From the NCBI GenBank assembly GCA_020152595.1, contig JAIGNY010001633.1:277501-341500 (forward strand): a stretch of DNA of 64,000 bases. The letters run 5' to 3'. Position numbers and translations under genes: made by a program. This DNA comes from Chiridota heheva (taxonomy: Eukaryota; Echinodermata; Holothuroidea; Apodida; Chiridotidae). Below the pieces are notes generated by a model. The model worked only from the letters and a program-made list of their open reading frames with translations. It ran no database searches and was not told the origin of the DNA. Below are positions 36,274 to 39,965 of the stretch, in pieces (position 1 is the first letter of the stretch; each line of letters starts with the position of its first letter).

Positions 36274-37045
36274 CTAAGCAAATTCTTCATCTCTTCTGTC
36301 TCTTGCAACTATTGCAGCCTCTCCCCAGCTGTTCCATAGAAAACTATTTCTCTCCTTTTCTGTCACTCTTCTCCAAGTAGTCTTAGGTCTTCCCTTCTTT
36401 CCTCCACGATCTGGCGTCGAGGCGATGGACACCCTGGCACAGCCCCCTCTCATCCCCTCCCAACACAACACATCTCCATCTTTTCTTAAATATCTCCCTA
36501 CCTACCTCCACCGCACTTGTTCTTTATTTAGTTTGCCACTGGCAACCCCCACTGGCCATCTAATCCCCAAAACAATCCCAAGGCACTTCCTCCAGAACAC
36601 ATCCAGTTTCCTCTCGTCAGCTCCTGCCAGCCCCCACACCCACAGAGGAGCAGTGAGACAACACTTGATTGAAACACCTTCAGTTCAGTCCCCATCTGGC
36701 AGACGTCTGATCCCTAAAAGCCGCCTGTGCCGGCCCAACTCTGCGTTTCATGTCTCCATCCGCACTTTCCTCTTTGGACAGCGCCACACCGAGACAGACA
36801 AAGCCACCGACATCTCCAAGCTCCGCACCTGCAACTGTTCCATCAGTTTTGTTGCTAATGCGCATGATCTAAGTCTTTTTTTTATTAATCCCCAGATCAA
36901 CCGTTCCACCCACCTCAAGTAGTTTGCTTGTTTTGCCTTTGAGTCGTTCTTTGATGCTAGAAGTACGTGCAATGTCATCAGCATGGTCAAGATCGTCCAG
37001 GGCAGAAATATATTCCACAGGATTCCATTCCTTCTGCCCCTGTAC
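36274..37045 (-). pseudogene. LINE reverse transcriptase pseudogene, C-terminal half
   Basis: Reading the minus strand from 37010 down: LDDLDHADDIA (catalytic xADD motif, about 36972-36986), then a GINKKKT block, VGGFVCLG, a stretch matching the usual RT thumb, and finally GRPKTTWRRVTEKE with a terminal A.DR....FA tail (36274-36400) characteristic of one group of animal non-LTR retrotransposons. The catalytic motif has His in place of the usual Phe or Tyr before ADD. Several frameshifts and stops break the frame. Upstream, the frame RRNGILWNIF just before LDDLD also fits the family. The preceding RT part lies on the far side of the 26-bp array. Confidence 0.85.
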
Positions 37046-39712
37046 AGGTCCCCATCACCCAGTCAGTGTACCAGTCCCCATCACCCAGTCAGTGTATCAG
37101 GTCCCCATCACCCAATCAGTGTATTGGTCCCCATCACCCAGTCAGTGTATCAGTCCCCCGTCACCCAGTCAGTGTACCAGTCCCCATCACTCAGTCAGTG
37201 TACCAGTCCCCATCACCCAGTCAGTGTATCAGTCCCCATCACCCAGTCAGTGTACCAGTCCCCATCAACCAGTCAGTGTATCAGTCCCCATCACCCAGTC
37301 AGTGTACCAGTCCCCATCAACCAGTCAGTGTATCAGTCCCCATCACCCAGTCAGTGTACCAGTCCCCATCACCCAGTCAGTGTATCAGTCCCCATCACCC
37401 AGTCAGTGTATCAGTCCCCATCACCCAGTCAGTGTATCAGTCCCCATCACCCAGTCAGTGTACCAGTCCCCCATCACCCAGTCAGTGTATCAGTCCCCCA
37501 TCACCCAGTCAGTGTATCAGTCCCCATTACCCAGTCAGTGTATCAGTCCCCCATCACCCAGTCAGTGTACCAGTCCCCCATCACCCAGTCAGTGTACCAG
37601 TCCCCATCACCCAGTCAGTGTATCAGTCCCCATCACCCAGTCAGTGTACCAGTCCCCATCAACCAGTCAGTGTATCAGTCCCCATCACCCAGTCAGTGTA
37701 CCAGTCCCCATCAACCAGTCAGTGTATCAGTCCCCATCACCCAGTCAGTGTACCAGTCCCCATCACCCAGTCAGTGTATCAGTCCCCATCACCCAGTCAG
37801 TGTATCAGTCCCCCATCACCCAGTCAGTGTACCAGTCCCCATCAACCAGTCAGTGTACCAGTCCCCATCACCCAGTCAGTGTACCAGTCCCCATCACCCA
37901 GTCAGTGTACCAGTCCCCCATCACCCAGTCAGTGTATCAGTCCCCATCACCCAGTCAGTGTACCAGTCCCCCATCACCCAGTCAGTGTACCAGTCCCCAT
38001 CACCCAGTCAGTGTACCAGTCCCCATCACCCAGTCAGTGTATCAGTCCCCATCACCCAGTCAGTATATCAGTCCCCATCACCCAGTCAGTGTATCAGTCC
38101 CCATCACCCAGTCAGTGTATCAGTCCCCATCACCCAGTCAGTGTATCAGTCCCCATCACCCAGTCAGTGTATCAGTCCCCATCACCCAGTCAGTGTATCA
38201 GTCCCCATCACCCAGTCAGTGTATCAGTCCCCATCACCCAGTCAGTGTATCAGTCCCCATCACCCAGTCAGTGTATCAGTCCCCATCACCCAGTCAGTGT
38301 ACCAGTCCCCCCATCAACCAGTCAGTGTATCAGTCCCCATCACCCAGTCAGTGTACCAGTCCCCATCACCCAGTCAGTGTACCAGTCCCCATCAACCAGT
38401 CAGTGTATCAGTCCCCATCAACCAGTCAGTGTATCAGTCCCCATCAACCAGTCAGTGTATCAGTCCCCATCACCCAGTCAGTGTACCAGTCCCCATCACC
38501 CAGTCAGTGTACCAGTCCCCATCACCCAGTCAGTGTATCAGTCCCCATCACCCAGTCAGTGTACCAGTCCCCATCAACCAGTCAGTGTATCAGTCCCCAT
38601 CACCCAGTCAGTGTATCAGTCCCCATCAACCAGTCAGTGTATCAGTCCCCATCACCCAGTCAGTGTACCAGTCCCCATCAACCAGTCAGTGTATCAGTCC
38701 CCATCACCCAGTCAGTGTACCAGTCCCCATCACCCAGTCAGTGTATCAGTCCCCATCACTCAGTCAGTGTACCAGTCCCCATCACCCAGTCAGTGTACCA
38801 GTCCCCATCACCCAGTCAGTGTATCAGTCCCCATCACCCAGTCAGTGTACCAGTCCCCATCAACCAGTCAGTGTATCAGTCCCCATCACCCAGTCAGTGT
38901 ATCAGTCCCCCATCACCCAGTCAGTGTACCAGTCCCCCATCACCCAGTCAGTGTACCAGTCCCCATCACCCAGTCAGTGTATCAGTCCCCCCATCACCCA
39001 GTCAGTGTACCAGTCCCCATCACCCAGTCAGTGTATCAGTCCCCATCACCCAGTCAGTGTACCAGTCCCCATCACCCAGTCAGTGTACCAGTCCCCATCA
39101 ACCAGTCAGTGTATCAGTCCCCATCACCCAGTCAGTGTACCAGTCCCCATCAACCAGTCAGTGTATCAGTCCCCATCACCCAGTCAGTGTACCAGTCCCC
39201 ATCACCCAGTCAGTGTATCAGTCCCCATCACCCAGTCAGTGTATCAGTCCCCATCACCCAGTCAGTGTACCAGTCCCCCATCAACCAGTCAGTGTATCAG
39301 TCCCCATCACCCAGTCAGTGTACCAGTCCCCCATCACCCAGTCAGTGTATCAGTCCCCATCACCCAGTCAGTGTACCAGTCCCCATCAACCAGTCAGTGT
39401 ATCAGTCCCCATCACCCAGTCAGTGTACCAGTCCCCATCACCCAGTCAGTGTATCAGTCCCCATCACCCAGTCAGTGTACCAGTCCCCATCACCCAGTCA
39501 GTGTACCAGTCCCCATCAACCAGTCAGTGTATCAGTCCCCATCACCCAGTCAGTGTACCAGTCCCCATCACCCAGTCAGTGTACCAGTCCCCATCAACCA
39601 GTCAGTGTATCAGTCCCCCATCACCCAGTCAGTGTACCAGTCCCCCATCACTCAGTCAGTGTATCAGTCCCCATCACTCAGTCAGTGTATCAGATCCCCA
39701 TCATCCAGTCAA
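37046..39712. repeat. 26-bp minisatellite inside a LINE RT gene, about 102 copies
   Basis: The unit is 26 bases (CAGTCAGTGT at 38161 and 38187), made of CCCCATCACCCAGTCAGTGT plus ATCAGT or ACCAGT. CCCATCAACC, CCCC/CCCCC and ATCACTC variants are scattered through it. As 26 leaves remainder 2 on division by 3, each plus frame passes through all three phases, and no phase holds a stop. This gives three overlapping frames of 966, 939 and 910 codons that are all artefacts. Read on the minus strand, the unit is GACTGGGTGATGGGGACTG, encoding DWVMG, which matches the flanking RT codons. Confidence 0.97.
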
Positions 39713-39965
39713 TAGCAAGCACAAAGAGGAAACCAGACACCACACACCCCTGCTTAGCCCCAGCTTTCACAGAAAACCAGTCATAACGCTGCACACCTGC
39801 TGCCATCACATCAGTTCTGTATAATAATTGTGCACCTCATGGGCTTCCAACTATCTTCCACACCAGGCCCCGTCCAGACCGTCAAACGCCCCTGAAAGTC
39901 AAGGAAGCCGAGGCACACCATGGCCCTCCACTCCAAGCATTGTTCTATTATATTTCTATTAGTAA
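39713..39965 (-). pseudogene. LINE reverse transcriptase pseudogene, N-terminal half
   Basis: Reading the minus strand from about 39965 down: NIIEQCLEW, then LDFQGAFDGLDGAW (the RT motif with the first catalytic Asp, about 39863-39902). After a frame change it continues YDWFSVKAGAKQGCVVS and FLFVLAIDWMMG (about 39713-39770). These are in the correct order for the RT palm, and the next expected segment is the one found at 37045 downward. The two fragments are one gene split by the 26-bp array. Stops and at least one frameshift show it is dead. Confidence 0.85.

Follow-up and report, generated by a model that had tools for sequence, protein, structure and literature searches.

How a minisatellite of about a hundred units came to interrupt the reverse transcriptase (RT) of a LINE is the question raised by the 64,000-nucleotide stretch of the Chiridota heheva genome analysed here (the window). 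A first-pass annotation had described the RT as split into two ordered, co-oriented parts, and the two flanks of the array are indeed consecutive parts of a single RT in correct order. Over the array region, an open 108-aa fragment of the relative L022 (fetched loci are numbered L, contigs C) matches Pfam RVT_1 with an E-value of 1.5e-11. The LINE parts recognised around the array stood, but their limits had to be mended: the insert spans about 39961 to 36227 and is flanked by a 9-bp direct repeat, ATAAGTTAC (Table 1). A 9-mer common to both 70-bp stretches was also obtained in 57 of 2000 shuffles; the window repeat is a credible target site duplication (TSD) because it lies flush with both ends of LINE homology. 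The copy is 5'-truncated, beginning at column 1227 of a majority taken over 2351 columns of L022, on which L051 begins at column 1826 and 11 copies reach column 0.

Table 1. Features of the array-bearing LINE copy, in window coordinates.
Feature	Position	Strand	Remarks
TSD candidate, 5' side, ATAAGTTAC	39962..39970	-	Adjoins start of LINE homology
Upstream RT part of 5'-truncated LINE copy, ending in AID	39712..39961	-	LINE homology; 68-77% identity to fetched relatives (alignments of at least 160 bases)
Minisatellite, 102 units, mostly 26 bp, some 27-28 bp	37039..39711	-	Unit corresponds to host segment TGACTGGGTGATGAGAACCAGTACAC
Downstream part of LINE copy: RT and C-terminal region, to 3' end	36227..37038	-	LINE homology
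TSD candidate, 3' side, ATAAGTTAC	36218..36226	-	Direct repeat
Stretch with nearly all A-to-G changes (array aside)	36402..39932	-	Limits placed by eye

For the array itself, TRF reports positions 37048-39711 with a period of 26, 101.7 copies and 94% matches, while splitting on the unit sequence yields 102 units on the minus strand from 39711 down to 37039, both bearing out the earlier count of about 102 units of 26 bp. The commonest forms are TGACTGGGTGATGGGGACTGATACAC (38 of the 102 units) and TGACTGGGTGATGGGGACTGGTACAC (22 of 102). A match between unit and host over about 20 bases had been noted; the match holds, its length does not, as all 26 unit bases align in register to 26 consecutive host bases, with 21 and 22 identical positions in the two commonest forms. 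Host-like ACC/ATC is confined to units 1, 99, 100 and 102 (n = 102); the array edges retain the old unit form. Exact equality between units is highest at distance 2 (0.34, versus 0.15 at distance 1), which suggests growth partly in 52-bp steps. One base of the frame is lost where the final unit passes into the flank.

For the corresponding site in other copies, relatives were collected from the same genome using the flanks as bait. The downstream flank gave 47 matches (40 of 735 candidates scored) and the upstream flank 40 (40 of 306 scored), and the 80 loci fetched, minus 6 duplicates, comprise 74 distinct relatives. As the annotation had anticipated, copies without the array exist: the site is crossed arrayless in 66 of the 74, crossing being defined as an alignment from base 21 or lower to base 60 or higher of a 67-base string (on its left side, LINE sequence is scant in L018 and L029), whereas 2 relatives cover it partially and 6 are without that region. 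No net indel is present in 55 of the 66, and the empty site in most relatives reads CTAT-TGACTGGGTGATGAGAACCAGTACAC-AAGGCAGAAGG. No unrelated sequence separates the AIDW-M segment from RRNGI in these copies, confirming the claim that one directly precedes the other. The largest gain at the site amounts to +20 bases in L072 (L072:1746-1833), resembling a short local duplication in a register different from that of the 26-bp array, and L085 has +7. In L039 (L039:1923-2575, contig C1987) about 650 bp extra is found between bases 357 and 387 of the 3' query.

The copy that hosts the array is hypermutated. With the column majority of 21 relatives over the two flank pieces as main ruler (eight of 29, L018, L026, L029, L031, L032, L036, L037 and L038, were left out as truncated or misaligned in parts), the BLAST alignment of the window copy gives, on the LINE sense strand, A>G at 119 of 383 sites and T>C at 6 of 227 (one-sided p = 1e-20), with G>A at 13/242 and C>T at 15/160. 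Against the column majority of all 29 relatives, 127 of 196 substitutions are A>G and 6 are T>C, the A>G changes being split by the array into 31 on its 5' and 96 on its 3' side. As the hypermutation is common to both sides, the two LINE halves represent one insertion. In the 73 other copies pooled (without L051), the corresponding values are 381/24,543 for A>G, 204/14,702 for T>C, 858/14,864 for G>A and 621/10,444 for C>T. Sorted by 5' neighbour, A>G changes in the window copy affected 30 of 56 A after T, 53 of 139 after A, 18 of 68 after C and 18 of 106 after G. Hence, 5' G is disfavoured (odds ratio 0.33, p = 5e-5; window copy and L051 together, 0.35, p = 4e-6). The order of 5' neighbours favoured by ADAR enzymes is U, A, C, G. 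Background A>G in other copies favours 5' T too (odds ratio 1.87) and does not avoid 5' G (1.07). No 3' G preference was seen in the A>G changes; 3' T is mildly enriched in the window copy and L051 together (odds ratio 1.71, p = 0.02).

The changes become few towards the 3' end. Column 685 divides the 3' part of the window copy into a stretch with 88 of 246 A changed and a following one with 1 of 47, and the first 120 columns past the array contain 3 changes in 41 A. A second LINE stretch with strand-specific A-to-G hypermutation was found at L051:1426-2038 (contig C2743), where A>G amounts to 38/213 and T>C to 1/103 (p = 1.4e-6). This insertion is bounded by its own 10-bp TSD, and its A>G changes are restricted to one part (38/109 before column 560, 0/101 after), with a limit differing from that of the window copy; because columns 560 and 685 were both picked as limits once the data had been seen, p-values on them are not clean. 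Rates by 5' neighbour in L051 are.28 for A,.26 for T,.10 for G and.06 for C, the rate for 5' C being no higher than that for G; taken singly, the tests are weak (5' G in L051 alone, odds ratio 0.41, p = 0.05). At sites covered by L051, 18 of 66 window edits are also G in L051, versus 16 of 127 unedited sites, which argues for a shared preference rather than shared descent. The next most skewed of the 75 copies is L086, with A>G at 14/124 versus T>C at 4/101 (p = 0.036). Along part of the 3' side no relative is closer than L039 (81%), which was rejected as an edited copy (A>G 7/416). A ruler-free screen compared window and loci pairwise (without L082-L091) in alignments of at least 150 bases with tandem arrays masked, scoring as skewed those in which one transition type made up at least 15 cases and at least half of the mismatches. 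Skew was found in 123 of 3168 alignments, of which 109 involve the window, 14 involve L051 and none involve others. The relatives are a biased sample for which the window copy served as bait, and because 40 of 735 and 40 of 306 candidates were scored, two edited copies among 75 do not represent a genome rate.

Concerning the origin of the array, insertion or capture of a pre-existing 26-bp satellite into the LINE would be in keeping with the abundance of arrays in the window (21 of at least 300 bp with at least five copies). This is the sole point in its favour, and against it the unit equals a host segment in register and orientation and the junctions contain no foreign sequence. The annotation had asked for the array elsewhere, and no second copy was found in the organism's own 1.1-Gb assembly: a query of 201 array bases gave 19 matches, 19 of 19 within this array, in a search that skips common words and so does not prove rarity. 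Of 81 loci, 11 contain a 25-base joint pattern, and these 11 are all stretches of the window's own contig, C1631. Insertion of a satellite is rejected by the arrayless sites together with the unit-host identity, and we give this explanation next to no credence. Birth of the array in place, by contrast, is shown at the level of sequence comparison, because the site is arrayless in 66 of 74 relatives, the unit equals 26 host bases, the edge units are host-like and the search just described found this array at no other locus. The empty sites and the unit-host identity likewise support the original proposal that an RT segment was amplified in place inside a dead LINE.

Even with the array born in place, the A-to-G pattern might be ordinary divergence, the window copy being a member of an old subfamily from which the relatives are derived by G-to-A change. 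Its low identity to the relatives (only about 70-81%, whereas L022 compared with 29 loci, L022 included, mostly shows 84-90%) would agree with this. However, 119 A>G changes face only 6 T>C, and within the single insertion L051 one half is skewed and the other half is not. Moreover, the relatives' majority is one open RT frame, for which reason the polarity is taken as A to G in the window copy, where the changes comprise 82 non-synonymous and 37 synonymous ones. Their rates over the three codon positions are 43/141, 34/109 and 42/120 (.31/.31/.35); since the decayed other copies are also flat over codon positions, this argues only against divergence under selection. We consider ordinary divergence very improbable. 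Somewhat less remote, yet still unlikely, is an origin of the changes at the cDNA step, either by ADAR acting on an RNA-DNA hybrid or by RT misincorporation under unbalanced nucleotide pools, as this would likewise be strand-specific and limited to the insertion. Pool imbalance alone, though, predicts neither the avoidance of 5' G nor an L051 whose 3' half has all 101 A unchanged. The best reading of the pattern is that an ADAR-type enzyme edited the LINE RNA; this fits strand, base, 5' neighbour, limits and the occurrence in two separate insertions, and the limits of the A>G stretches fit the end of a putative RNA duplex.

On this basis, a history of editing, retrotransposition and in-place array growth is proposed, which as a whole we hold to be probable. 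Part of the LINE RNA would have been double-stranded and hyper-edited from A to inosine by an ADAR-type enzyme. During reverse transcription inosine would then have been taken for G, and the edited, 5'-truncated copy was presumably inserted at a 9-bp target site, turning the editing into germline DNA; the structure of this insertion is observed, and its mechanism is what the structure suggests. Within the edited copy a 26-bp RT segment would have been tandemly duplicated, with no flanking homology visible, and the array may have grown to 102 units by slippage or unequal exchange, as the old-type edge units suggest. Microhomology at the first duplication was considered and rejected, as by eye the empty site offers about one matching base at most beside each joint; slippage between flanking repeats is for this reason not shown. 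All 102 units carry at least four G followed by A where the relatives mostly read GAGAA, and the array would be younger than the editing because the G run is common to all units. Both A>G changes in the array unit follow G, the weak context, and one of them is also present in L034, so these two could be ordinary mutations.

Several features go beyond the first-pass annotation, namely the hypermutation, the second hypermutated copy, a second LINE-internal array and the richness of the window in minisatellites. Merged TRF stretches, 40 in number, make up 29,415 of the 64,000 window bases (46%), and as arrays are so common here, an array within the LINE needs no special cause. The second LINE-internal array, 53 bp x 8, belongs to another copy of the same LINE (L037:2224-2652, identical to L040:2916-3344, contig C1336) and matches the C-terminal coding part of that copy. 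Insertions also differ in a 25-bp unit of the LINE 3' tail, with about 12 repeats in L014:2293-2597, 11 in L062:619-886 and two each in L013:2316-2364 and L016:2338-2392. By eye, a near-identical 31-bp unit is arrayed at 53379-53856 of the window and at L040:446-596; in contrast to the 26-mer, it is a dispersed unit. An Rfam search of the window gave nothing at gathering scores, and of two other window ORFs one has a sub-threshold RNase_H hint and the other is without a match.

The minisatellite is of a known kind, and this assignment is well supported. Among human minisatellites, 7,276 (23%) are TE-derived, and 6,817 of the 7,276 are without flanking direct repeats or an incomplete end unit, according to the parts of PMC3389668 cited here. 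The window array resembles them as a local duplication inside a TE copy with a unit colinear with the TE and, as in those 6,817 cases, without a visible flanking repeat (PMC3389668). In contrast to most of the 6,817, which consist of two units in that account, it has about 102, and it is set apart from the human cases, as described there, by its location in LINE sequence coding for RT, by the 66 arrayless paralogues and by its hypermutated host copy (PMC3389668). Derivation of a repeat unit from a LINE ORF2 segment is shared with PROsat (Phodopus), Pvc 20 (Phoca) and HinfI/CR1 (Gallus), as these are outlined in PMC9659126; those satellites are named families, whereas the window array is a short-unit minisatellite found in one place.

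More surprising than the array are the LINE insertions with A-to-G hypermutation. Clustered A-to-G changes in reverse-transcribing elements are described, in the sections cited, for ADAR hyperediting of retroviruses, namely for BLV proviruses (PMC8025556) and for RAV-1, ALV, HTLV-2 and STLV-3 (PMC8586724). The 5' G avoidance in the window copy agrees with the ADAR preference stated in the latter, where A, C and U are favoured over G as 5' neighbour (PMC8586724). Unlike these retroviral cases, as far as the two accounts describe them, the element studied here is non-LTR, comes from a genome assembly and is represented by two separate insertions, and in the window copy about one in three A has changed along ~1 kb of LINE (PMC8025556, PMC8586724). 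APOBEC editing of retrotransposons likewise leaves clustered changes of one type in genomic retroelement copies, but these are G-to-A, and the passages cited on this report an A-to-G excess to be absent from high-quality human and Xenopus DNA traces (PMC2873906). In the portion of a review cited here the ADAR question is called undetermined (PMC4982230). Searches of the open-access PMC literature yielded no description of genomic LINE insertions hyperedited from A to G.

Runs of at least three G are enriched in the edited copy, numbering 17 in the 3' part versus 4 in the relatives' majority and 5 versus 2 in the 5' part. Given this enrichment and the origin of the array at one such run, one may speculate, at long odds, that ADAR-edited retrotransposon RNA acts as a germline mutator and that G-rich minisatellites arise preferentially in the G-rich stretches it creates. 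At this locus, the birthplace of a minisatellite is resolved to the base, with dozens of arrayless paralogues as controls. The two LINE insertions look as if they preserved RNA editing as a fossil in the genome, their DNA recording which adenosines of a past RNA were deaminated. If this is true, hyperedited LINE copies would make the ADAR question testable from assemblies alone.
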